This document shows positions 9,696 to 26,726 of a stretch of 51,032 bases of DNA, in pieces. Made by a program: the position numbers and the translations under genes. The notes beneath the pieces were generated by a model. That model did not search any database, was not told the origin of the DNA, and saw only the letters and a program-made list of their open reading frames with translations. Source of the stretch: Ruminiclostridium sp. (lineage in GTDB: Bacteria > Bacillota > Clostridia > Oscillospirales > Ruminococcaceae); NCBI GenBank assembly GCA_017941355.1, contig JAGAWN010000253.1, positions 1 to 51,032 of the forward strand. Reading direction: 5' to 3'. Numbering within the stretch: position 1 is the stretch's first letter; every line of letters starts with the position of its first letter.

Positions 9696-12434
9696 TTACT
9701 GCAAAAGCTGCTTCAAAGTTCCCCAATCCACGCTGTCCGCGGCGGCAGTGACCGCCTGCATCTTCCCGGCGAAGCTTTCCGGGATCCTGTAATCGTTAAG
9801 TTCATCAAGCACCTCACAGAGCACGTCGTAATCGAAGTTATCCGCCGCTGCGCGCAAATCCTCAAATGCGTCGAGCATCATCGCTTCGGTCGCCTCGGGC
9901 TTGTTATCGTCCGGCTTTGCATCGGCAGCCGCGCCGCGTCCGTACTTTTCCGGGACTTCGCGGTACATTTCGAGCAGTTCGGCGTTATGAGCGTGAATGA
10001 ACGCGGTATCTCCGCTGTCTCCCGCTTTTTCAAGCTGTTCCGCCAGCGCGCCTATGTTCTGCTCTCCCACAAGGCGGGAGGTGCTTTTCAGAGCGTGTAC
10101 CTTTATAGTGTAGTTCGTCCAGTCCCCGTTGTTGTACAGTTTCTCGATCTCCGCCGACATTCTCGCTATATCGTCAAGATAGATGTCAAGCAGCTCCGAG
10201 ATGTCCGCTCCGCCGTTCTCGTCCTCTGTGATCGCGGTATGCACCAGCGAGTCCGGAAGAAGTTCCACGATCATAGTTTCCAGCCGCACAGGGTCAATGG
10301 GCTTTGTCAGGTATTCGCAGAAACCGGAGGAAATATAGAACTCCCTCATTCCCGAGATCGCGTTTGCGGTAAGACAGACGGCGGGAGTATCGCGGTTCAG
10401 ACCGCCGCTGTCCGTGCGCAGTTCCTGCAAAGTCTCTATTCCGTCCTTATCCGGCATTCGGTGGTCGAGGAAGATAAGATCGTATTTGTACTGCTCCGCA
10501 AGATGTATTGCGGCATCTCCGCCAAGAGCCGTGTCTATGTGCATTTTCGTCTTTTTCAGCAGATTCCTGAATACCACCAGATTCATCTCGGTGTCATCTA
10601 CCACCAGCACCCACGCTTCCGGCGCGGTAAATGATTCGTGGTACTCTCTGCGGGAAGAGGCGCTCTTTCCGGCGGCTGCCGAGAAATCCCCTATCGGGGT
10701 GTTCTTTACCATTTTCTGTTTCAGAGTGAACCAGAAATCCGAGCCTTCCCCATAAACGCTGTCAACCTCCAGACGGCTTCCCATGAGCCGCAGAAGCCGC
10801 TGGGTTATCGTGATGCCGAGACCCGTTCCCTCGATAGAGCGGTTGCGCTCTTCCTCGATACGCTCGAACGCTATGAAAAGCTTGTCGATATCTTCTTTCT
10901 TTATACCTACTCCCGTATCGCGGACATGGATCGTGAGATATACGTCATCGCCGTTTCTCTCATGCTCGGCGGAAAGAGTCACGGTTCCCTGCTTTGTGTA
11001 TTTCACCGCGTTGGTGAGCAGGTTCATCACGATCTGCTTTATGCGTATCTCATCGCCGCGCAGATACTCCGGGATAGACGGATCCACCTTCACGGTGAAA
11101 GAAAGCCCCTTTTCCGACACCCGCGGCTCGATCATGCTGGAAAGATCGTTCAGCACGGAAGAAAGCTGATAATCCACAGGGATTATCTCGGTTTTGCCGG
11201 CTTCGATCTTAGAGAAGTCCAGAATGTCGTTTATCAGTCCGAGCAGCGTGTTTCCGGCCTTGCGGATATCCTCCGCGTACCGGAGAGTCTGCTCGTCCCT
11301 GCTTTCGCGCAGTATCATCTCATCCATGCCGAGTATAGCGTTGATAGGAGTCCGTATTTCATGCGACATATGAGCAAGGAAGTCGCCTTTTGCCTGCGAA
11401 ACGGCTTCGGCGGACTGACGGGCGTCCTGGAGCAGGTGGATATACCGGCGCTCGTCGGTATTGTCGTAAATGCTTATCTGGTAGCCTTTCTTTTTGCCGC
11501 CGATAAGCGTGTAATTCACGCCGATCTTATAGCTTATGCCGCCGCGTTCGAGATCGAATTCCGAGGGCTTGTTGTTCATGTCGGTGAGATCCAGCCACTT
11601 GTGGATCGTATCAAAGCACGGTTCCCCGCGGCGAAGCGGCTCGTCGATGTACATTTCCGCCAGTTCCGGCAGGCAGCTCAGCGCCGGGACGCTGCACCCG
11701 AGATAGTGCCGGGACATATCGAACGCGAAGAAACCGGTCTTTCCCTCATCGGTTATGGTATCCACCGCCATTTCCGTAACGGAGTACATTTTAAGCCTTC
11801 CGCTGAGGATTATCATAACGATCTGGGTGAGAATATACGCCGCCGGCTGCATCTCGACCGACAGATCGAACAGTTTTGTTCCGAAGAACGACACTATGTT
11901 TATAAGATATACCACGGCAAGTATCATTGCGTTCTTTTTGGATACGTCCCTACGGGTAAAGCCGTAGATAAGGACTCCCACATCGACTGCCATATAGAAC
12001 ACGATCATTATGTAGAAAACCGTATGCAGGGGGCCGTAAACCTTGCCGATATACGAAAGACCGTTTTCGCGGACAAGCCATGAATCTTCATACAGCAGAT
12101 GGTTGTGATTGGTGGTGAGCGCCATGCTGCCGAGAAAGGAATTCAGCACAAACAGAGGGACGCTCAGCAGACGCGGAAGCTTTACCCGGCAGAACGAAAA
12201 GACATACACCATTATCGCAAGCTGCAAAAAGCTTGAACACAGATAGCACAGCCCGTTGGCAAGTATTGCCTCCGTGTAGGATTCCGCGACTGCCACGCGG
12301 AGATATCCGACATTGATGATAGGCATCAGCAGGAATGCCACGGCGTAGCTCACCGATATGTATCTGTTCCATTTCCAGAGGAATAAGCCTGTCAGAGTAA
12401 TGGTAATATACAGCGACATCTGATAATACAGCAT
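9696..12434 (-). CDS. Hybrid sensor histidine kinase with receiver and HPt domains
   Basis: Membrane sensor with a full internal phosphorelay. Residues 1-215 hold about seven transmembrane segments. A linker domain follows (residues 225-335), then a dimerisation/phosphoacceptor helix SHEIRTP with His358, the ATPase domain (DTGVGI near 506, GTGLG near 537), a receiver domain with phosphoacceptor Asp657 in FLDHRMPD, and an HPt domain with His780 in VHALKSTSR. GGGGAGG precedes ATG 12434. No response regulator with an output domain is adjacent, so the phosphate target is unknown. The 7TM sensor resembles the intracellular-kinase N-terminal 7TM class, ligand unknown. 912 residues. Confidence 0.9.
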   Translation of the reverse strand: MLYYQMSLYITITLTGLFLWKWNRYISVSYAVAFLLMPIINVGYLRVAVAESYTEAILANGLCYLCSSFLQLAIMVYVFSFCRVKLPRLLSVPLFVLNSFLGSMALTTNHNHLLYEDSWLVRENGLSYIGKVYGPLHTVFYIMIVFYMAVDVGVLIYGFTRRDVSKKNAMILAVVYLINIVSFFGTKLFDLSVEMQPAAYILTQIVMIILSGRLKMYSVTEMAVDTITDEGKTGFFAFDMSRHYLGCSVPALSCLPELAEMYIDEPLRRGEPCFDTIHKWLDLTDMNNKPSEFDLERGGISYKIGVNYTLIGGKKKGYQISIYDNTDERRYIHLLQDARQSAEAVSQAKGDFLAHMSHEIRTPINAILGMDEMILRESRDEQTLRYAEDIRKAGNTLLGLINDILDFSKIEAGKTEIIPVDYQLSSVLNDLSSMIEPRVSEKGLSFTVKVDPSIPEYLRGDEIRIKQIVMNLLTNAVKYTKQGTVTLSAEHERNGDDVYLTIHVRDTGVGIKKEDIDKLFIAFERIEEERNRSIEGTGLGITITQRLLRLMGSRLEVDSVYGEGSDFWFTLKQKMVKNTPIGDFSAAAGKSASSRREYHESFTAPEAWVLVVDDTEMNLVVFRNLLKKTKMHIDTALGGDAAIHLAEQYKYDLIFLDHRMPDKDGIETLQELRTDSGGLNRDTPAVCLTANAISGMREFYISSGFCEYLTKPIDPVRLETMIVELLPDSLVHTAITEDENGGADISELLDIYLDDIARMSAEIEKLYNNGDWTNYTIKVHALKSTSRLVGEQNIGALAEQLEKAGDSGDTAFIHAHNAELLEMYREVPEKYGRGAAADAKPDDNKPEATEAMMLDAFEDLRAAADNFDYDVLCEVLDELNDYRIPESFAGKMQAVTAAADSVDWGTLKQLLQ

Positions 12435-16993: not shown

Positions 16994-17290
16994 ATGACAA
17001 TCAATAAAACAACAAACGGAAAAGAAGTAATTATCGGCGTAAGCGGCAGGATCGACTCAAAGACGGCACCGGAATTTGAATCGCAGGTCAAAGAGTGCTT
17101 TGCCGAAGCCGACAGCATTGTGATAGACCTTGCGGATGTGAACTACATCTCCTCCGCCGGACTGAGGGTATTTCTGGCTGCCCACAAGGCTATGGATGCC
17201 AAAAAAGGCATGAAAGTGAAAAACGTGTGCAAAGAGGTCATGAATATATTTGTTGTCACAGGTTTTTCGGGAGTCCTCGATATCGAATAA
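16994..17290 (+). CDS. STAS-domain anti-sigma-factor antagonist-like protein (first copy)
   Basis: 98-residue single STAS domain, the family of SpoIIAA and RsbV. Such proteins are bound or phosphorylated by a cognate RsbW-type kinase, and dephosphorylated by a PP2C phosphatase. The phosphorylatable region DVNYISSAGLRVF near residue 48 has the usual serines. The gene is 10 bases upstream of an RsbW-like kinase gene, and a SpoIIE-type phosphatase lies further down the cluster, giving a complete switch in one locus. No sigma factor is present, so the output is probably not transcription initiation of the classical type (inference). Confidence 0.9.
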   Translation: MTINKTTNGKEVIIGVSGRIDSKTAPEFESQVKECFAEADSIVIDLADVNYISSAGLRVFLAAHKAMDAKKGMKVKNVCKEVMNIFVVTGFSGVLDIE

Positions 17291-17300
17291 AGGAGATGCT

Positions 17301-17732
17301 ATGGAAATACCGGTAAAAGAGCTTGTGACTGCCGCGTCAGTCGATAATCTGGAAACAGTTACGGAATTTGTGGACGAGCAGCTCGAAGCTGCGGACTGTC
17401 CGATGAATATACAGCTTCAGGTGGAACTTGCGGTTGAGGAGATCTTTGTCAACATCGCAAGCTACGCCTACGCCCCCGGCACCGGAAATGCCACGGTAAG
17501 AGTCGGCGTTTCCGGTGAACCGGCGACTGCCGAAATAACGTTCATGGACAGCGGCGTACAGTACGATCCGCTCGCAAAGGACGATCCCGATGTGAACCTG
17601 CCCGCGTCGGAAAGGGATATCGGAGGACTCGGCATATTCCTTACAAAGAAGAACATGGACGAAGTCGCCTATGAGTACCGGGACGGTATGAATGTATTCA
17701 CAATGAAAAAGATCCTGACGGAGCAACGATAA
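17301..17732 (+). CDS. RsbW/SpoIIAB-like ATP-binding kinase
   Basis: 143-residue HATPase_c_2 (GHKL) protein, the anti-sigma/serine-kinase part of a partner switch. Start ATG 17301 follows AGGAG by five bases; upstream in-frame starts lie inside the STAS gene. N box AVEEIFVNIASYAY near residue 45, G1 region FMDSGVQYDPL near 83, and GGLGIFLTKKNMDEV near 113. Expected substrate is the STAS protein next to it, and possibly the second STAS at 22789. The protein bound when the STAS partner is phosphorylated is unknown; the NRPS or zinc-ribbon protein is a candidate by position only. Confidence 0.9.
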   Translation: MEIPVKELVTAASVDNLETVTEFVDEQLEAADCPMNIQLQVELAVEEIFVNIASYAYAPGTGNATVRVGVSGEPATAEITFMDSGVQYDPLAKDDPDVNLPASERDIGGLGIFLTKKNMDEVAYEYRDGMNVFTMKKILTEQR

Positions 17733-17746
17733 CGGAGGAAAAACAA

Positions 17747-20719
17747 ATGGCACAGATAATCGAAAAGCTTGCCGGTTACGCACGCGAAAGCGGCAATACA
17801 GCGATACTGTTTGACGACGCACATTCCAAAGGTATAACATACTCACAGCTTGACGACATTACCGCCCGGATCTACGGCTGGCTGCGTGCAAAGGGCATCG
17901 GAAAAGAGGATTTCGTTCTTATAGACCTGCCGAGAGGCGTGCTTCCCATTGCGGCAATGCTGGGCGTCTGGCGTGCAGGAGCGGCTTTTGTGCTTGTGGA
18001 GGAAAACTATGCTCCGGAGAGAACGGAGTATATCCGCCGTGACTGCGGCTGCAAAATACGCATAAGCGCTTCCGTCTGGAACGAGATCATGCAGACTGAG
18101 CCGCTTGACGGCTTTGCGCAGACCGGCGATCACGATGCGGCATACGCAATATATACCTCCGGCACCTCCGGAAAGCCCAAGGGAGTCCTGCACGAATACG
18201 GAAGCCTGCAAATGAGCATAGATTCCATAAAGCTGGACGGGAAAGTGCCTTTCGGATCCGACGACAGGCTTGCTCTTCTTGTCCCGCTTAATTTTGCGGC
18301 ATCGGTAATTGTGGCTCTGGCAGCGCTCAACACAAAGAACGGAAAGATCTTCGTTGTCTCATACACAACGCTCAAAGACCCCGTACTTCTGCGGAATTTC
18401 TTCATAGAAAAGCAGATCTCCGTTACATTCCTCACACCGTCCTATGTGCGTGCAGTCGGCAGCAACGTCGGTCCTTACCTCAAGACCCTGTTTGTCGGCT
18501 CGGAACCCGCAAACGATGTATTTGTGAAGAATGTCCGGCTGATAAACGTATATGCCATGAGCGAGAGCGGTTTCGGCGTGAGCCTGTTTGAGATCGACAA
18601 GCCCTACAGGATCTGCCCGATAGGAAAGCCGACAGTAAAGACTTCGCTCATAGACGAGGAAGGCGAACCTGTACCTGAGGGTGAAACAGGCGAACTGTGC
18701 TTTGAAGTTCCCTATGTGCGCGGCTACATAAATCTCCCGGAGGAGACAGAAAAGACTTTCGTGAACGGTGTCTGCCGCACCGGCGATCTTGCGCGCATGA
18801 ACGAGAACGGCGATCTTCTGCTGCTGGGCAGAAGCACCGATATGATAAAGATCAACGGCAACCGCATAGAGCCTGCCGAAATAGAGGCAGCACTGCGCGA
18901 GGTGCTGCATATAGACTGGGCAGCCGCCAAATGCGTTGAGGACAGCGGGAAAGCCTATATCTGCGCCTACTATAAAGACAACATAAGGATAGACGCCAAC
19001 GCTCTGCGCGAGGTGCTGCTGGAATACCTGCCTTACTACATGATACCGTCGTATTATGTGCGGGTGGATCATGTACCGCTGCGCCCGAACGGAAAGCTGG
19101 ACAGAAAGGCTCTGCCGGTACCTGAGCCTAAGGATATGGTGAAAACCTACGCCGCGCCGGCAAACGAGACGGAAGAAAAACTCTGCACGGCAATGGCAAA
19201 GGTGCTGGGGCTGGAGCGCGTGGGAGCAAGAGACGATTTCTATGAACTGGGCGGAGACTCCCTCGGCTCGATACAGGTCATAACCGAGAGCGGACTCCCC
19301 GGACTCAATGCCTCGGAGATATTCAGAGGACGCACCCCGCAGAGAATAGCGAAGCTTTACACATCGCTCCATACCGCGTCCGGCAGTGAATCCAACGAGG
19401 CAAGGAACGCGAGAGCAATGAAAAAGGCTCACCCGCTTACACCGGAACAGCTTTACATGGTGGATTATCAGCTCTATACCCCGGAATCCACAATGTACAA
19501 TCTGTTCACGATGCTTAAATTCGACAAGACCCGGATAAGCGCCGAAAAGGCGGCGGCGGCTATGCAGGCGGCAATACTCAATCACCCCGCTTTGCTGACT
19601 GTGCTGGAATTCAACGACGACGGCGACATAGTCCAGAGGTACTCCCCCGAAAAGATGAAAAACATTGTCGTTGAGCAGCTTCACGACTGGGAATTCGACA
19701 CCGTGAAAGATACGCTGGTAAAGCCGTTCATGATCATCGGTTCCCTGCTGCACAGATGCAGAGTGTTTGAAACGGAATCTGCCGGATATGTGTTCTTTGA
19801 CGTTCATCATACTATGTTTGACGGAAGCTCATTCAGGGTGTTCATGGGAAATGTCATTCGTGCGGCAACGGGCGCGGCTCTGATCCCCGACAGCTACTAC
19901 CTCATGCTGGAAGATCGTGAAAACGCGGTGAACAGCGCGTTCTACGAGGAGAGCAAGCGCTATTTCGAGGAAAACTACGACAATACCGAATGGAGTACCT
20001 ACCCGACTCCCGACAACGAATCCCGCGAGAACGAAATGGGAGAGCTGATATGCAGTCTCGGCACGGAGCGGGACGAACTGCTGATACCGGAAGAAAGAAT
20101 GCGGATCTCACGCAGCGAGTTCTTCATAACAGCCGCCGGCTTTGCAGTCGCGTTCTACAATCATGCCGACAATATCCGCCTTTCGTGGATATACAACGGA
20201 CGTGATGATATGCAGATGATGAACGCGGTGGGACTTCTGTTCCGTGACCTGCCGGTGGGTTTCAGGCTGAATGACGGCGCAACCGTCGGCAGCATCTTTG
20301 AAAGCGTGCATCAGCAGGTATGGGGCGGCATAGAACACAGCTGCTATCCGTATGTCGATACCATCTCACAGGTGGGCGATGTGGAATCGGCTTATGTGCT
20401 GTACCAGAAAGATATGCGAGATATGAGCGAGATAAGATCGCTCGGCATCGAAACTGTGGATATACGCCAGAACCAGGCGGCATCGCAGACTATCCTCGAT
20501 ATGGAGATCCTTGACGGCGAGGAGGGCTTGCAGCTTATGATAGACTACGCTGCCAGCAGATACAACGACGAGAGCATAAAACGGTTCGCGGAACTGTTCG
20601 TGAAAACAGTCAGAACGCTTCTGAGAAACGGCACGGATATCACAGTGGGCGAACTGAGAAAACAGACGGAAGCCGATACGGAGAACAGCGGCAGCACCGT
20701 ATTCTCCAGAAAGAAGTAA
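17747..20719 (+). CDS. Nonribosomal peptide synthetase, adenylation-thiolation-condensation
   Basis: 990 residues, one A-T-C unit with no thioesterase or reductase. The adenylation domain (1-460) has A3 YTSGTSGKPKG at 136-146, A7 CRTGDL near 343, A8 GRSTDMIKINGNRIEPAEIE at 361-380 and catalytic lysine near 450 in NGKLDRKAL. The carrier domain has GGDSLG with phosphopantetheine site Ser505. The condensation domain has HHTMFDGS at 687-694 with the catalytic second His688. Motif A4 is NFAAS (182-186), lacking the Asp that holds an alpha-amino group, so the substrate may not be a standard amino acid. An acyl or aminoacyl unit on Ser505 would be handed to an acceptor bound by the C domain (inference). 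No phosphopantetheinyl transferase nearby. Confidence 0.9.
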   Translation: MAQIIEKLAGYARESGNTAILFDDAHSKGITYSQLDDITARIYGWLRAKGIGKEDFVLIDLPRGVLPIAAMLGVWRAGAAFVLVEENYAPERTEYIRRDCGCKIRISASVWNEIMQTEPLDGFAQTGDHDAAYAIYTSGTSGKPKGVLHEYGSLQMSIDSIKLDGKVPFGSDDRLALLVPLNFAASVIVALAALNTKNGKIFVVSYTTLKDPVLLRNFFIEKQISVTFLTPSYVRAVGSNVGPYLKTLFVGSEPANDVFVKNVRLINVYAMSESGFGVSLFEIDKPYRICPIGKPTVKTSLIDEEGEPVPEGETGELCFEVPYVRGYINLPEETEKTFVNGVCRTGDLARMNENGDLLLLGRSTDMIKINGNRIEPAEIEAALREVLHIDWAAAKCVEDSGKAYICAYYKDNIRIDANALREVLLEYLPYYMIPSYYVRVDHVPLRPNGKLDRKALPVPEPKDMVKTYAAPANETEEKLCTAMAKVLGLERVGARDDFYELGGDSLGSIQVITESGLPGLNASEIFRGRTPQRIAKLYTSLHTASGSESNEARNARAMKKAHPLTPEQLYMVDYQLYTPESTMYNLFTMLKFDKTRISAEKAAAAMQAAILNHPALLTVLEFNDDGDIVQRYSPEKMKNIVVEQLHDWEFDTVKDTLVKPFMIIGSLLHRCRVFETESAGYVFFDVHHTMFDGSSFRVFMGNVIRAATGAALIPDSYYLMLEDRENAVNSAFYEESKRYFEENYDNTEWSTYPTPDNESRENEMGELICSLGTERDELLIPEERMRISRSEFFITAAGFAVAFYNHADNIRLSWIYNGRDDMQMMNAVGLLFRDLPVGFRLNDGATVGSIFESVHQQVWGGIEHSCYPYVDTISQVGDVESAYVLYQKDMRDMSEIRSLGIETVDIRQNQAASQTILDMEILDGEEGLQLMIDYAASRYNDESIKRFAELFVKTVRTLLRNGTDITVGELRKQTEADTENSGSTVFSRKK

Positions 20720-20734
20720 GGAGGGAACTGCAAA

Positions 20735-22738
20735 ATGATCTGTCGTAATTGCAGCCGCAAGCTGCCTACAGGTTCCACATACTGCCCTTACTGCGGCGCA
20801 AAACAGGGAGCCGTTGATATATGCCCGAAATGCGGCACAAAAATTCCCGAGGGCGCTTTATTCTGTCAGAAATGCGGTGCCAATGTTCTTGAAGAAAGTC
20901 TTGAATTTGACTTGCCCGGCTCAGGCGAACCTTTTTACAAAAAGTGGATCGCGGAGCATAAGCAGCTTGCCGAGAACAAGCGTATAACCTGGATAAGCGA
21001 GTTCATGGACAACTACGCCGTGGCAATAGACGACACCGCACCCGGCAGAGATCTGCGTCCTTTCCTTGTGAGAGGCGAGCATATTGCCGAAGTGGTGGGA
21101 TACATGAGCTGGACAGGTGCCAACATGGCGAACGGCGTGCTTGAACGCGAGGGAGACTGCTTCCGCAACGGCACGCGCTTTATCAGCTTTATCCTGTTCC
21201 GGAGCGGCGGCATGATATCTTCCGCCGAGTACAGCAGGATCCTTACGGCATTCACCGGACTCACACAGGCGTTTGCCACATCGGGCATCGCTCTGGTCAT
21301 CGCCCGTAACGGGAAGATCCTGTTTGCGTCCCAGTATCAGGAAAACGTCACAGGTATAGCAGATGTGTTCCCTATCCGCATGATAGGCGGGAAATACTGC
21401 CTTTACACCTCTCCGGAGGAATATAACAAGATGACGAACCGCGAACGCTTCAATGCCGTTTCGGACGACATAAAGACGGCTTCGCAGAAAATTATAGACT
21501 GCGACACGGGCATGGCTGTTCTGGAGAATGTGTTCGTTCCGAAATACGACGGTGACCCGAGCGAGTATTTTGTAGAATACTTCCCATACAGCAAAGACAT
21601 GATCGACGTTCTGCACAGCTTCTCCGAAAAGAACAGGCAGAGATGTATCTTCAACCGCCGCACCGGAAAGATTTACACTGCCGGCAGGAACGCAAGATAC
21701 AAGACCGTCCGTATAGAAGGAGACAAAGCACACGAAAGATACTTCATGATGAGGATCACCGACATACAAGCCGAAGATGATCCCCGTGCAGGCGGCGAAA
21801 CGGGAACCGCGGAGATAATCGACGAAAACGACGGTGTTGTTCTGAACATCGGACGCTGCGATGTGCAATATACACCGGATATCATCGGCACCGGAAACAT
21901 GGTATTCATCTGCGTACACTCTCAAGTGTCCCGGAGCGCGGCGGGAGAACAGGCGGACAGCTTCAACTTCGTTTACAGCTTTGCCCGCGATCCTCAGGGC
22001 GGATATACCGAAGCCGTAAAGCGCAGGATCTCCGGAAATGCCGGCTTTGCCGACGGTATCGTGCATCTTCACACAGCGGATAAGACCGAACCGCTGAGCG
22101 GCGTGTTCACCGTAAACGGGAAATTGTATATCTCTTTCCTTAAAGAAGCGGACGAGATGTCCGACGAGAACGATATATGCCTTATCGTAGATGAAAAGTT
22201 CAATAAGATCCATTCGTTCGGCTACAAGCCTCATTACGGAAATCAGACTCCCTACGGTATCCATATCTTCGACAGCGGGCTATACTCACTTAGCAGCGAA
22301 AGCGACGATACCGGCAGCGAAAAGGCTGTGCTGAAGAACGTGCTTACCGGCGAAACGCTCTTCACTGCCGATCCCGCACAGCTTATATCAAACGCAAGCG
22401 CGGAATTCGGCACGGGACGGATCCGTCCGAGATACGAATTCGGCAGCTACAGAGCCGCCGGAAACATATACTTCCTTATCGGCAAACAGAACCGGGGACT
22501 GGGAATAATGGATTTTCACGGAAAACCCGTTATTCCCGTTGACAGAGAAAACTATTTCATAGTCTCCGCAGGAGCGCTCGGACTTGTGGGTGCAGGCAAC
22601 AAATACGCGAGACTGCCTGAAAACACGTTCCTTGTCATACTCGGCAGCTTCGACAGCGACAGATACAGGGTATGCGACATTACCGGGAAAAATATTTTTG
22701 AGGGAAGTATGGCTGAACTGACAGAGCATTTTTCGTAA
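20735..22738 (+). CDS. Large double-zinc-ribbon protein of unknown function
   Basis: 667 residues, not recognised beyond the N-terminus. Two zinc ribbons stand in tandem: Cys3, 6, 17, 20 and Cys30, 33, 44, 47. After a linker, residues 70-250 form a mixed alpha/beta region, and from about 250 the protein is rich in short beta strands and turns (for example GIHIFDSGLYSLSSES and RAAGNIYFLIGKQNRG), suggesting a propeller or repeated beta-sheet domain. No signal peptide or membrane segment, so probably cytoplasmic. Starts 16 bases after the NRPS with GGAGGG, hence same operon. It may be a scaffold or regulator for the switch (inference). Confidence 0.75.
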   Translation: MICRNCSRKLPTGSTYCPYCGAKQGAVDICPKCGTKIPEGALFCQKCGANVLEESLEFDLPGSGEPFYKKWIAEHKQLAENKRITWISEFMDNYAVAIDDTAPGRDLRPFLVRGEHIAEVVGYMSWTGANMANGVLEREGDCFRNGTRFISFILFRSGGMISSAEYSRILTAFTGLTQAFATSGIALVIARNGKILFASQYQENVTGIADVFPIRMIGGKYCLYTSPEEYNKMTNRERFNAVSDDIKTASQKIIDCDTGMAVLENVFVPKYDGDPSEYFVEYFPYSKDMIDVLHSFSEKNRQRCIFNRRTGKIYTAGRNARYKTVRIEGDKAHERYFMMRITDIQAEDDPRAGGETGTAEIIDENDGVVLNIGRCDVQYTPDIIGTGNMVFICVHSQVSRSAAGEQADSFNFVYSFARDPQGGYTEAVKRRISGNAGFADGIVHLHTADKTEPLSGVFTVNGKLYISFLKEADEMSDENDICLIVDEKFNKIHSFGYKPHYGNQTPYGIHIFDSGLYSLSSESDDTGSEKAVLKNVLTGETLFTADPAQLISNASAEFGTGRIRPRYEFGSYRAAGNIYFLIGKQNRGLGIMDFHGKPVIPVDRENYFIVSAGALGLVGAGNKYARLPENTFLVILGSFDSDRYRVCDITGKNIFEGSMAELTEHFS

Positions 22739-22788
22739 CCGTCCGGATACGTTCTGTTCCTTGTATCTCCCGAAAGGCAGACTATAGC

Positions 22789-23088
22789 ATGAAAATTGAA
22801 GGACAAATGAATAACAGGGTGTTGTCTGTGATCCTTGAGGGCAGACTCGATACGGATGCTGCGCCTTTGCTCGAAGAATTCCTGACAGAGAATCTTCCCG
22901 GGGCTGAATCCGTGGAACTTGATTTCTCAGGCGTGGACTACATATCTTCCGCGGGACTGAGAGTTATGGTATGGCTGAGCAGACATACCGGGATCAGTAA
23001 GGGTTTTATAAGGATCAGAAATATGAAATCGTCCGTAAAAGGCATTTTTGAACTTACGGGGATCTCGGATATGGTTGTTGTGGAATGA
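22789..23088 (+). CDS. STAS-domain protein (second copy)
   Basis: 99 residues, single STAS domain with the same phosphorylation region as the first copy (GVDYISSAGLRVM near residue 45). Overall similarity to the 16994 copy is moderate, so it is an old paralogue or a different specificity. The two copies could act on different partners of one RsbW-like kinase, or this copy may answer to the SpoIIE phosphatase further downstream. Ribosome binding site AAAGG-like before ATG 22789. Confidence 0.88.
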   Translation: MKIEGQMNNRVLSVILEGRLDTDAAPLLEEFLTENLPGAESVELDFSGVDYISSAGLRVMVWLSRHTGISKGFIRIRNMKSSVKGIFELTGISDMVVVE

Positions 23089-23128
23089 CCGTTCAGCCGT
23101 GTAAAGTACAGATTTAATGGAGCGATCT

Positions 23129-23734
23129 ATGGAAAATAACGAAATAAATATCAGGCAGCTGACTACCGAGGTCATGGAAGCGCTTGCGCATACAATAGAC
23201 GCAAAGGATAAATATACCAACGGTCATTCCGAACGTGTGGCTATATATTCCAGAATGCTCGCCAAAAGACTCGGACTCCCGGAAGAAGATCAGGAAAAGG
23301 CGTACTACATGGGGCTATTGCACGACATCGGGAAAATAGGTATCCCAAACGCGGTCATCAATAAAACCACAAAGCTTACCGACGAGGAATTTGAGCTTAT
23401 GCAGTCACACCCTATCTTAGGGTACAACATTCTGAAAGATATAAAAAGTATGCCGGAGCTTGCTCTCGGGGCGCGCTGGCACCACGAATACTACAACGGA
23501 AAGGGGTATCCCGACGGCAAAACGGCAGAGGAACTGCCGCTGCTGGTGCGGATAGTCTCCGTAGCGGACAGCTATGACGCTATGACTTCCAACCGCAGCT
23601 ACCGCCAGTATCTCCCTCAGGAGACAGCGAGAGCGGAGATCGAAAAAGGGATCGGGATCCAGTTTGACCCGGATATCGCAAGATGTATGCTTGAGATAAT
23701 TGATCTCGACACAGAATATTCGCTGCATGAGTGA
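23129..23734 (+). CDS. HD-GYP-type phosphodiesterase
   Basis: 201 residues, almost only the HD-GYP domain. HD-GYP proteins hydrolyse cyclic dinucleotides, mostly c-di-GMP. The metal and signature residues are present: GHSERVA, LLHDIGKIGIP near residue 68, HHEYYNGKGYP near 117 and SVADSYDAMTSNRSYR near 140. It lacks any sensor domain, so activity may be set by partners. ATG 23129 is preferred over 23117 because GGAG sits six bases before it. No diguanylate cyclase is in the window. Confidence 0.88.
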   Translation: MENNEINIRQLTTEVMEALAHTIDAKDKYTNGHSERVAIYSRMLAKRLGLPEEDQEKAYYMGLLHDIGKIGIPNAVINKTTKLTDEEFELMQSHPILGYNILKDIKSMPELALGARWHHEYYNGKGYPDGKTAEELPLLVRIVSVADSYDAMTSNRSYRQYLPQETARAEIEKGIGIQFDPDIARCMLEIIDLDTEYSLHE

Positions 23735-23808
23735 TCTGTTTACCCTATGGATACCGAAACTGTCACGCTGAGATGCCGGGGCGGATCTGCCGTCTAAGGA
23801 GAGAATGG

Positions 23809-25590
23809 ATGAAAGAAACTAAAAGCACCGTCACCGGTCAGATAACAAAACCGCTGACCGTATTTCTTATAATACTTATTATCATTACAATGGCTGCTAT
23901 GTTTTTATTCTCCATTCAGCAGACCTTTATCGAAAGACGTGACAAGGGTCAGCAGATAGCCGAGTATATGATAAACGAGGTCACGGATTACAGATCCGTG
24001 GGCTGGCTTGTGGATTTCTGGCTGAACAACCGTGACAGCATGGAGCTGATATATGACGAACCGGCAGCGAAAGAGACCGAAGCATATCTGGAAAGCAATA
24101 TCCCGCACTACACGCTGGCAAAGGACGTGACCGAGGCAACTGTGACATCACTGCCTGCCGAGGTGCAGATGAAATTCGCGGAATACTGCTACGCGGAAAT
24201 GTCGGCAAAATTCAACTGGGTAAAGCGCAGCTTTAAACCCACATACCTTGACGCGTTCATAATCAGGAACAATGAGTGCATTTTCATGGTATCCGGCTGC
24301 CGGGAAGGAGAAACGCATATAAGCGAGGGCGGCGGGATATTTGAGCTTGGCGTGACCACGCCGTTTGCAACAGGAACATACCCGGTGCTTGACAAAATAC
24401 TCTCCGACCAAACCACGGAATACAACATAGAAATCTCACTCTCCGCAGGTGCCGATCACAGCAATATCCGTACTTTCGCGCCGGTTTATGACGAATCCGG
24501 AGAAATGGCGATGCTGATCTCCGTGTCACAGGAATGGTACGATATACTTGCGCAGACGCTCAGGGTAACGCTTGCGATAACGCTGATCGTGCTTGTGCTG
24601 CTTGTACTTCTGGACGTGAGAATAGTACGGCTGGTGCTGAAATATGTAGTCCGTCCGATAAAAGCGGAAGAGGCTGTGCTGTCGGAGTACATATCCGATA
24701 AAAACGCGGACAAGGCAATGGAAGGGCTTGCCGGTATCAGATCGGGAAACGAGATACAGACGCTCGCGGAGAATTTCTCGTTCATGGCTTCGGAAATCGA
24801 CCGATATGTGCAGGAAATACGCACAGTCACAGCCGAAAAGGAGCGTATAGGCGCCGAACTCGATATGGCGGCGCGGATACAGGAAAGCCAGCTTCCAAGC
24901 GTTTTTCCGGCATTCCCGGACCGCGGCGAGTTTGATATCATCGCGTCCATGAACCCGGCTAAGGAGGTAGGCGGAGACTTCTACGACTTCTTCTTAATCG
25001 ACGAGGATCATCTCGCGCTTGTCATTGCCGATGTTTCGGGAAAGGGTGTTCCGGCTGCACTGTTTATGATGGCTTCCAAGATGCTGATAAACAACTATGC
25101 GCTGCCCGGAAAAACTCCCGCCGATATACTGAGCGAGGTAAACGAGAGGGTCTGCGAACGGAATGCCGACGATATGTTTGTGACTGTATGGCTCGGGATC
25201 CTTGAGATCAGCACCGGCAGACTCTCCTGCTGCAACGCGGGACATGAGTACCCGGCGATCAGAAAAGCCGGCGGAAGCTTTGAACTTCTCAAAGACAAGC
25301 ACGGTCCGGTCGTGGGAGCAATGGACGGAGTAAGATACAGGGCTTATGAGATACAGCTTGAACCGGGCGACACGGTTTTCGTATATACGGACGGCGTTCC
25401 GGAGGCTACAGACGCGAAACCTGAGCTTTTCGGGAACGAAAGAATGGTAAAGGCACTGAATTCCGTTCCCGACGGCTCGCTCGAAGAACTGCTGAAAGGC
25501 GTAAAGCGAACCGTCGATGAATTCGTCGGAGAAGCTCCGCAGTTCGATGATCTTACAATGCTTGCAATGCGTTATATCGGAAAGGACTGA
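23809..25590 (+). CDS. Membrane SpoIIE/PP2C-family phosphatase with extracellular sensor
   Basis: 593 residues. Transmembrane helix 16-38, an extracellular sensor domain of about 210 residues, helix 250-273, a HAMP-like linker with coiled coil, then the PP2C (SpoIIE) domain from about residue 360 with GGDFYD (388-393), ADVSGKG (407-413), a YTDGVPEA motif and DDLTML, all metal-binding features. Such enzymes remove phosphate from STAS proteins, so it should reset the two STAS proteins of this cluster when its sensor detects an outside signal. ATG 23809 follows AAGGAGAGA; the longer upstream reading has no ribosome binding site. Confidence 0.88.
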   Translation: MKETKSTVTGQITKPLTVFLIILIIITMAAMFLFSIQQTFIERRDKGQQIAEYMINEVTDYRSVGWLVDFWLNNRDSMELIYDEPAAKETEAYLESNIPHYTLAKDVTEATVTSLPAEVQMKFAEYCYAEMSAKFNWVKRSFKPTYLDAFIIRNNECIFMVSGCREGETHISEGGGIFELGVTTPFATGTYPVLDKILSDQTTEYNIEISLSAGADHSNIRTFAPVYDESGEMAMLISVSQEWYDILAQTLRVTLAITLIVLVLLVLLDVRIVRLVLKYVVRPIKAEEAVLSEYISDKNADKAMEGLAGIRSGNEIQTLAENFSFMASEIDRYVQEIRTVTAEKERIGAELDMAARIQESQLPSVFPAFPDRGEFDIIASMNPAKEVGGDFYDFFLIDEDHLALVIADVSGKGVPAALFMMASKMLINNYALPGKTPADILSEVNERVCERNADDMFVTVWLGILEISTGRLSCCNAGHEYPAIRKAGGSFELLKDKHGPVVGAMDGVRYRAYEIQLEPGDTVFVYTDGVPEATDAKPELFGNERMVKALNSVPDGSLEELLKGVKRTVDEFVGEAPQFDDLTMLAMRYIGKD

Positions 25591-25595
25591 AAAAT

Positions 25596-26726
25596 ATGTC
25601 CGCGAAACGTATCGAGGAACTTGATGTCATAAAAGGCATCGGAATGGTGATAATTATTACCGTGCATCTTGTTTACCGTACAAAGGCAGGAGCGGCGGAT
25701 CTTATCCTGCGTTCGCTGGGGTGGCTTTTCATAGCGGTGTATTATATGCTTGCGGGCTACTCGTACACAAACGGTAAGAGAACAGTCACGCAGAGCTGGC
25801 TGCACCGTCTGAAAACACTGGTTCTGCCTGCCGTATCGACAGAAGCGATAATGCTGGTGATCGGAGGTCTGTACTGTGCGCTTTTTCACGGTTACACTCT
25901 GACCGACTGGCTGCACGATGTGACAGTCACCGTTATCAGACCCGAACTTGGTATGATGATCTCGGAAGAATGGGGCAGAGGCGGCGTGCTTTTCGAGAAT
26001 CTGTCACCGTCATGGTTCGTGTGGACGCTCGCGTGGACGGAACTGCTGTTCTTCCCGCTTGCGCAGATAAGCACCGGCAAGGGCAAAGCCCGCTGGTGGA
26101 TCACGGCGGCGGCGCTGACGATTGTACAGATACTTCTATATGTCTTTGTATCTCCCGTATCGTGGCAGTTACAGCTTGTTCCGCTGTTCACGCTTTTCAT
26201 GCTTATGGGTGCGAAGCTGCGGGAAAGCGGACTTGCCGAACGGGAATGGAAACCGGGAACCGCGCTCACGGCACTTATTGCGGCAGGCTGTTTCGCTGTG
26301 CATTTCGGGCTGTTCATGCTCGGCGGTGATGAAAGCTACTACGCAGGCAAAATAGGACTGCTTGGCTGGCAGGACGTGCTGCTTACCATTGTGCAGCTTC
26401 CGGTGGGATTTGTCGGTATGTATGCTCTCGCAAAGCTTATCCTGAAAGCCGGAGCTGCCGCAAAACCGCTGAAATGGCTCGGAAGTCACACGCTGATCTT
26501 TCTTATGTGCCACTGCTTTTTCGGAATGGCTGCTGCCGATTTTCTGCACACATTCATCAAACCCGGCGCTATGTGGTATGTTGAGAACGCGGGACTTACG
26601 CTCACTCCCGAAATATTCTTCAAATCCCTTGCAGGTGCCGTTTTCGCGGCGGCTTGCTGCACCGGCATAGGACTGCTTGACGATGTTTTCAAATCAAAGC
26701 GTAAACAGACTGCTGCCGGAAAATGA
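25596..26726 (+). CDS. Acyltransferase-3 family membrane protein
   Basis: 376 residues with about ten transmembrane segments. The N-terminus RIEELDVIKGIGMVIIITVHL matches the acyltransferase-3 pattern (R-x-x-x-x-D-x-x-K-G, with a late His). These proteins move acyl groups onto sugars, lipids or peptides at the membrane. Starts 5 bases after the phosphatase stop, clearly the same operon. It could modify a product of the NRPS or the target surface molecule (inference). Transport rather than transfer is a possible alternative. Confidence 0.8.
   Translation: MSAKRIEELDVIKGIGMVIIITVHLVYRTKAGAADLILRSLGWLFIAVYYMLAGYSYTNGKRTVTQSWLHRLKTLVLPAVSTEAIMLVIGGLYCALFHGYTLTDWLHDVTVTVIRPELGMMISEEWGRGGVLFENLSPSWFVWTLAWTELLFFPLAQISTGKGKARWWITAAALTIVQILLYVFVSPVSWQLQLVPLFTLFMLMGAKLRESGLAEREWKPGTALTALIAAGCFAVHFGLFMLGGDESYYAGKIGLLGWQDVLLTIVQLPVGFVGMYALAKLILKAGAAAKPLKWLGSHTLIFLMCHCFFGMAAADFLHTFIKPGAMWYVENAGLTLTPEIFFKSLAGAVFAAACCTGIGLLDDVFKSKRKQTAAGK

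Follow-up and report, generated by a model that had tools for sequence, protein, structure and literature searches.

The 51,032-base stretch analysed here (the window) is one whole contig (C142) of a Ruminiclostridium sp. assembly. At positions 16994-26726 of the + strand it carries eight genes in which a nonribosomal peptide synthetase (NRPS)-like enzyme lies among the three protein families of a partner switch: STAS proteins, an RsbW-like serine kinase and a SpoIIE-type phosphatase. Comparison with related loci revealed that this association is real and recurrent, an under-described variant of partner switching. We tentatively propose that the locus is a sigma-independent switch that controls the synthesis and export of a small acylated metabolite, a reading that in our judgement falls a little short of probable.

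Switch genes around the NRPS-like enzyme

We compared the window with relatives of its enzyme, which has adenylation, thiolation and condensation (A-T-C) domains. Scanning named genomes yielded 310 related stretches, and the best 80 of these (58-85% identity, many on short contigs), together with the window, make up the 81 loci referred to below; related genomes among them are not independent samples, and some of the counted open reading frames (ORFs) are fragments. The titles of the best 80 name mostly Clostridia, Ruminococcus, Lachnospiraceae and their kin, with some Bacilli, and many mention the rumen or another gut site. All three switch families were concentrated at the enzyme. The density of STAS genes was 0.160 per kb at less than 2.5 kb from the NRPS gene versus 0.0085 per kb beyond 4.5 kb, and the corresponding values were 0.076 and 0.0085 for SpoIIE and 0.071 and 0.0043 for RsbW. 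At least one STAS, SpoIIE or RsbW gene lay within 6 kb in 60 of the 81 loci, and in 27 of the 35 that have at least 5 kb on both sides. In 48 loci the gene directly preceding the enzyme on its strand encodes a STAS protein, and 46 of those STAS genes end no more than 35 bp from the enzyme start or overlap it, nine of them by 4 bp. The RsbW gene sits between STAS and the enzyme in the window and in locus L041. Among isolates, Ruminococcaceae bacterium P7 (L062) has SpoIIE, RsbW, STAS and NRPS genes together, and Lachnospiraceae bacterium AC2029 (L100) has the NRPS with a carboxylesterase and lacks a linked switch. Thus, the claim of an initial annotation of this DNA that the switch genes go with the NRPS was borne out across many genomes.

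The serine of the STAS phosphorylation site was present in STAS 1 and STAS 2 of the window and in every aligned row (85 rows, including two duplicates); we take the second serine of the pair to be the modified residue. STAS proteins adjacent to the enzyme cluster in a tree that has few columns (9 changes versus a shuffled mean of 28.2), and its starred branches force at least two lineage changes in the slot beside the enzyme. STAS 1 groups with proteins from L039, L041 and L151 (genome G024), the slot in L042-L045 is filled by another lineage, and STAS 2 belongs to a lineage different from that of STAS 1. Because more than one lineage fills it, what is kept is the slot and not one gene. Accordingly, we rejected a single NRPS-specific STAS lineage, as the adjacent STASs do not form one clade.

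The co-directional arrangement, short spacers and domains first described for the window proved correct. All eight ORFs lie on the + strand, with spacers of 10, 14, 15, 50, 28, -4 and 5 bp, in order, and an operon-like layout; a scan for promoters and terminators gave no more than shuffled sequence. STAS 1 (16994..17290, 98 amino acids (aa)) matches Pfam STAS (7e-14) and is of the anti-anti-sigma type (TIGR00377, 67 bits, above the cut-off), with its serine retained in the motif YISSAGL. The RsbW-like serine kinase (17301..17732, 143 aa; HATPase_c_2 4e-22) starts at ATG 17301, a correction of the ORF start at 17250, and has all of the N, G1 and G2 boxes (EEIFVN, DSGVQYDP and GGLGIFL). STAS 2 (22789..23088, 99 aa; Pfam STAS 2e-11) lies further downstream and likewise retains the serine. 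The SpoIIE-type (PPM) phosphatase (23731..25590, 619 aa from a GTG; SpoIIE PF07228 7e-51, 173 bits) has two membrane helices and an outside region, as judged by eye, and its real start may be further in.

The A-T-C enzyme and its zinc-ribbon partner

The enzyme (17747..20719, 990 aa) matches AMP-binding (2e-45), PP-binding (5e-6) and Condensation (8e-31) and carries motifs A3, A8 and A10, the carrier motif GGDSL and the condensation motif HHxxxDG. A3, the carrier GGDS and the A10 lysine were present in all 81 sequences and HHxxxDG in at least 79. At position 235 of GrsA, an aspartate binds the alpha-amino group in amino-acid-activating domains. All 81 sequences have Ala, Val or Ile in the corresponding place, and two further NRPSs of the group, included in the alignment as controls, have Asp; pocket positions were assigned by motif through GrsA numbering and an LgrA alignment. 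The ten-residue code was VAISFGIFAK in 62 of the 73 sequences outside the zinc-ribbon kind of locus (see below); within that kind it was AAISFGVFGK in four of eight and a close variant in the other four. Judged from these residues, the enzymes probably activate one common substrate that is no alpha-amino acid, and would yield an amide or ester. Since the amino-acid-binding Asp is missing from all 81 A domains, the peptide-type synthesis suggested by the initial annotation is doubtful.

Two main kinds of locus were distinguished by the gene that follows the enzyme. The first kind (the window, L039-L045 and L150 of G024) has a zinc-ribbon gene next, after a gap of 14-21 bp. In the second, the enzymes are more distant (about 60% identity) and a carboxylesterase gene usually follows (L100: COesterase, 4e-93), with other genes or the contig end in the rest; a carboxylesterase lies within 6 kb in 61 of the 81 loci. 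The double zinc-ribbon protein of the window (20735..22738, 667 aa) comprises two N-terminal zinc ribbons (Pfam) and a large domain. Its eight cysteines are invariant in 8 aligned homologues. Attempts to assign the large domain by sequence failed: five Protein Data Bank matches (E 0.002-0.84) all fell in the first 103 residues, four of them inside the zinc-ribbon region.

A protein search of relatives found A-T-C orthologues (at least 59% identity) in 11 of 99 genomes, and a set of 398 genomes from across the phylum contained orthologues in 2, our genome being included in both counts. By profile, a full-length zinc-ribbon protein was detected in 9 of the 99 (own included), exactly those holding the first-kind enzyme, and its gene was directly downstream of the A-T-C gene in all nine; in two further genomes the match was confined to the zinc ribbons (about 55 residues). 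The enzyme and the zinc-ribbon protein are the fixed unit of these loci. The expectation that homologues of the operon genes would be kept together therefore held for this pair. It did not hold for the switch parts, which shuffle around the pair, nor was the order of the eight families kept among related loci, and a fixed eight-gene system was rejected.

Two genes at the edges of the operon were rejected as parts of the system. The acyltransferase-3 membrane protein (25596..26726, 376 aa; Acyl_transf_3 9e-17) had no match at E 1e-5 in any of the 80 related loci (some of them short) and looks local. A PAP2 gene upstream of STAS 1 (end 16921, gap 72 bp) had weak matches in just 2 of the 80. Further upstream, on the - strand, the window encodes a hybrid histidine kinase (9696-12434; 7TM, HisKA, HATPase, receiver and Hpt).

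Other synthetases and domain fusions

Linkage to switch genes extends beyond this enzyme. We counted neighbours in 20 hand-picked genomes, 10 of the 15 relatives with an NRPS match (G024, G050, G058, G061 and G091 were left out) and 10 behind the best 80 loci; expected counts came from rounded genome sizes and ignored contig ends, which can only lower the observed counts. Non-orthologous condensation-domain ORFs of at least 590 aa lay within 6 kb of a HATPase_c_2 domain in 8 of 26 cases versus 0.94 expected. This count leaves out G102 and G108, whose second NRPS neighbourhood had already been viewed; with them it becomes 10 of 28 versus 1.04 expected. Neighbourhoods of other NRPSs from seven of the 20 genomes, besides our own, had also been viewed beforehand, and these were chosen for NRPS content alone. 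The A-T-C orthologues themselves were within 6 kb of HATPase_c_2 in 9 of 19 cases versus 0.62 expected. By comparison, stand-alone condensation proteins gave 0 of 6 versus 0.19 expected, and control alpha-amylases were near an RsbW-type domain in 3 of 88 cases versus 2.87 expected.

A similar association was found for GH3-family acyl-acid amido synthetases, at least 9 of 15 of which lay within 6 kb of SpoIIE versus 0.68 expected. GH3 is a distinct adenylate-forming family, generally grouped with NRPS A domains in one wide superfamily, so the two are not unrelated folds. Contig C183 of our genome (G000; L125 5229-11100) carries a set of RsbW, SpoIIE, GH3, MATE and STAS genes, and in L042 (10865-16593) GH3 occurs with RsbW, SpoIIE, MATE and STAS, 4 kb downstream of the first-kind NRPS.

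Switch domains are also fused to transporters and enzymes. For six of the 8 other NRPSs counted above, the nearby HATPase domain lies in a frame of 593-626 aa, and the four of those six that were inspected (G000, G007, G034 and G039) proved to be MATE transporters with a C-terminal RsbW-like domain. MATE-HATPase_c_2 fusions occur in L054 (6433-8199), L046 (7888-9657), L132 (1140-2954) and L177 (351-2108). Among 21 MATE tails compared, some of them from MATE proteins in which no HATPase domain is clear, the G2 box is often altered (for example KNIGIRM for GGLGIFL) and the N box is often kept. A MATE gene lies within 6 kb of the enzyme in 16 of the 81 loci, and no MATE-sized match was found in the window. 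Other fusions join a methyltransferase (LCM) to STAS (L041 15658-16887 and L119 7220-8449; by sequence cluster and tree position also L039, where it ends 24 bp before the enzyme), STAS to a phosphotransferase (APH; L125 490-1677, L083 12405-13565 and also L132 and L177), and SpoIIE to HATPase (L054).

Known partner switches and candidate targets

The window has the same three protein families and motifs as the RsbU/RsbV/RsbW and SpoIIE/SpoIIAA/SpoIIAB switches of Bacillus. There, proteins of the RsbW, STAS and SpoIIE types control sigma factors, and partner switching is textbook sigma control. By contrast, the operon and contig studied here have no sigma gene, and biosynthetic and cyclic di-GMP (c-di-GMP) genes are present instead. 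The closest likeness is in the archaeon Methanobrevibacter ruminantium M1, where NRPS genes are likewise grouped with phosphatase, antagonist and anti-sigma kinase genes. In the parts of that report available to us, one cluster is described as an NRPS flanked by a MatE exporter, an anti-sigma antagonist and a pair of serine phosphatases, and a second, NRPS-associated cluster as holding a phosphopantetheinyl transferase (PPTase), an acyltransferase, a phosphatase, an antagonist and an anti-sigma kinase; both (mru0066-0071 and mru0512-0516) were proposed to sense environmental conditions and to control expression of the NRPS (Leahy 2010, PMC2812497). The M1 enzyme is set apart by its published description as a two-module C-A-T protein with a terminal release domain; the window has a solo A-T-C enzyme with a zinc-ribbon partner and HD-GYP, and no MATE gene in the operon. 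The system is thus not wholly undescribed, as had been suggested at first, since similar clusters and the idea of NRPS regulation were put forward in 2010 (PMC2812497), and it is only partly described: in open-licence literature we found no wider description of the switch-NRPS association beyond that paper. A survey of rumen gene clusters reports 5,346 NRPS clusters, and the word STAS is absent from its main text, as far as that text was accessible (PMC8241843).

Three further systems offer precedents, as described in the accessible parts of the respective papers. SiaABCD of Pseudomonas aeruginosa resembles the window in having a PP2C-like phosphatase, a kinase and an antagonist-type protein, and its output enzyme is controlled by direct binding: SiaC binds and activates SiaD (PMC8457831, PMC7647112). 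In SiaC the phosphorylated residue is Thr68, and the enzyme that it activates is a diguanylate cyclase; the window has a PF01740 STAS with serine, an RsbW-type kinase and HD-GYP. Its phosphatase falls below the SiaA-family cut-off (NF038263, 73 bits versus 700), and no GGDEF diguanylate cyclase was recognised by Pfam in the operon, which has HD-GYP. Indigoidine is made by a single-module NRPS. Its production in Vogesella indigofera is genetically regulated by TciR, a protein with an RsbW-like domain; this domain is fused to a receiver domain, and the species lacks an RsbV homologue according to the paper (PMC12826045). SypA/SypE of Vibrio fischeri is a STAS protein under a kinase/phosphatase and is said to act post-transcriptionally, in a polysaccharide biofilm locus described with no NRPS (PMC4517449, PMC12826045).

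The linkage to two synthetase families, the fusions to enzymes and transporters and the archaeal case argue most strongly that the target of such a switch need not be a sigma factor. In the mechanism that we propose, an outside signal would reach the SpoIIE phosphatase, which would be opposed to the RsbW kinase, and the balance between them would determine how far STAS 1, and perhaps STAS 2, is phosphorylated. The STAS proteins would then act on pathway proteins beyond only freeing a sigma factor, candidate targets being the A-T-C enzyme, the MATE-RsbW exporter of sister systems, a c-di-GMP enzyme and the zinc-ribbon protein. Direct binding of STAS 1 to the NRPS is possible, if doubtful. The enzyme would activate a carboxylic acid other than an ordinary alpha-amino acid and load it onto its carrier domain, the condensation domain would hand the acyl group to an amine or alcohol, and the zinc-ribbon protein would serve as dedicated partner of the enzyme.

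Several observations weigh against such a sigma-independent switch. No switch gene was found within 6 kb in 21 of the 81 loci, many of them short, or in 8 of the 35 long-flanked loci; the enzyme can therefore do without a linked switch. Similarly, 18 of the 26 other NRPS ORFs had no RsbW-type domain within 6 kb. Neither STAS nor RsbW was fused to an NRPS in the loci compared, and an NRPS-STAS fusion was accordingly dropped as proof of the link. Finally, the sigma matches elsewhere in the genome, described below, keep a distant sigma factor among the possible targets.

We regard as rather unlikely an alternative in which STAS 2 acts on HD-GYP (on GGDEF in relatives) and the NRPS product is in turn governed by c-di-GMP and not by the STAS protein, possibly via the zinc-ribbon protein. 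The HD-GYP protein (23117..23734, 205 aa; HD_5 7e-34) has HD and HHE...GYP motifs in its translation, and its gene adjoins STAS 2 in the window, as it adjoins a STAS gene in L039. Consistent with the part originally assigned to it, a c-di-GMP enzyme is regular in zinc-ribbon-type loci, 8 of 9 of which have one downstream. The window, L039 and L041 carry HD-GYP; L040, L043, L045 and, as a 144-aa piece, L044 carry GGDEF; L042 carries both, and L150 has none downstream. SiaC, which binds and activates SiaD, offers a parallel in the available description (PMC8457831). Within our genome, separate SpoIIE/STAS/RsbW sets also adjoin GGDEF, EAL and HD-GYP genes. Two of these sets (L129 8656-12480 on C233, with GGDEF, and L127 5397-11511 on C193, with EAL) have a SiaABCD-like layout with RsbW-type parts. 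Against this alternative, no receptor domain for c-di-GMP was recognised by Pfam in the operon, and the other loci have STAS beside the NRPS, yet only 5 of these 73 show a c-di-GMP enzyme inside 6 kb (2 of the 30 with at least 5 kb on both sides). As this enzyme is near-constant in the first kind of locus and rare elsewhere, a c-di-GMP branch is favoured for the window's version and disfavoured as the common output of all loci. A 202-aa protein encoded after the HD-GYP gene in L039 (15972-16580) has no Pfam match and looks by eye like a degenerate RsbW.

We consider an ordinary transcriptional switch unlikely; here RsbW would sequester a sigma factor whose gene lies elsewhere, and its release by STAS 1 would allow transcription of the operon and other genes. 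Canonical motifs or domains are kept in all three switch proteins, such proteins do this in Bacillus, and the genome has 70 matches to sigma-70 region 2. None of the 70 lies on the 51 kb contig, which upholds the initial annotation in finding no sigma factor here. Of the 11 HATPase_c_2 matches in the genome, a single one has a sigma match on its contig (C195, a STAS-kinase-sigma arrangement in a spoIIA-like series); as several of the HATPase_c_2 contigs are shorter than 16 kb, sigma genes past their ends would be missed. The other contexts are GGDEF (C233), EAL (C193), HD-GYP (C151), GH3 (C183), NRPS (C142 and C44), MATE fusions (C44, C11 and C159), a CstA-like neighbour (C273) and a 3.3 kb contig (C18). 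On C273 (L174 6331-8223) the RsbW-like gene is immediately upstream of the CstA-like gene. These totals may be inflated by mixing, since the assembly (4.5 Mb, 300 contigs, estimated contamination 3.97%) is large for a genus whose other members are listed at 1.0-3.8 Mb; eleven of the 70 sigma matches lie on one contig (C51). The fusions of switch domains to a transporter and enzymes also argue against a purely transcriptional role, as does the like association in an archaeon (PMC2812497, as described in the parts available), since Archaea had yielded no bona fide sigma factors (PMC2686161).

Coincidence, with switch genes and synthetases both piling up in variable islands of gut bacteria without joint function, fits the patchy occurrence of the enzyme (11 of 99 and 2 of 398 genomes) and is very improbable given that a STAS gene directly adjoins the enzyme, closely spaced or overlapping, in 48 of 81 loci, that two separate synthetase families and not amylases are linked to switch genes, and that switch domains occur in fusions.

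We further suggest, as a doubtful generalization, that partner switches form a class driving adenylate-forming synthetases (NRPS-like and GH3) and MATE exporters by direct STAS binding. If this is true, the MATE-fused RsbW-like domain, whose G2 lid is changed in the cases examined, would be a STAS-reading receiver of the transporter, and the synthesis and export of a signal-like molecule would switch on together. The class would also explain the SpoIIAA/SpoIIAB/SpoIIE-like proteins of Archaea, for which no bona fide sigma factors had been identified. Were the link direct, outside signals would control secondary metabolism post-translationally, providing a point of access to the small molecules of the rumen and a testable answer to the question, left unanswered in 2009, of what archaeal anti-sigma-like proteins target.

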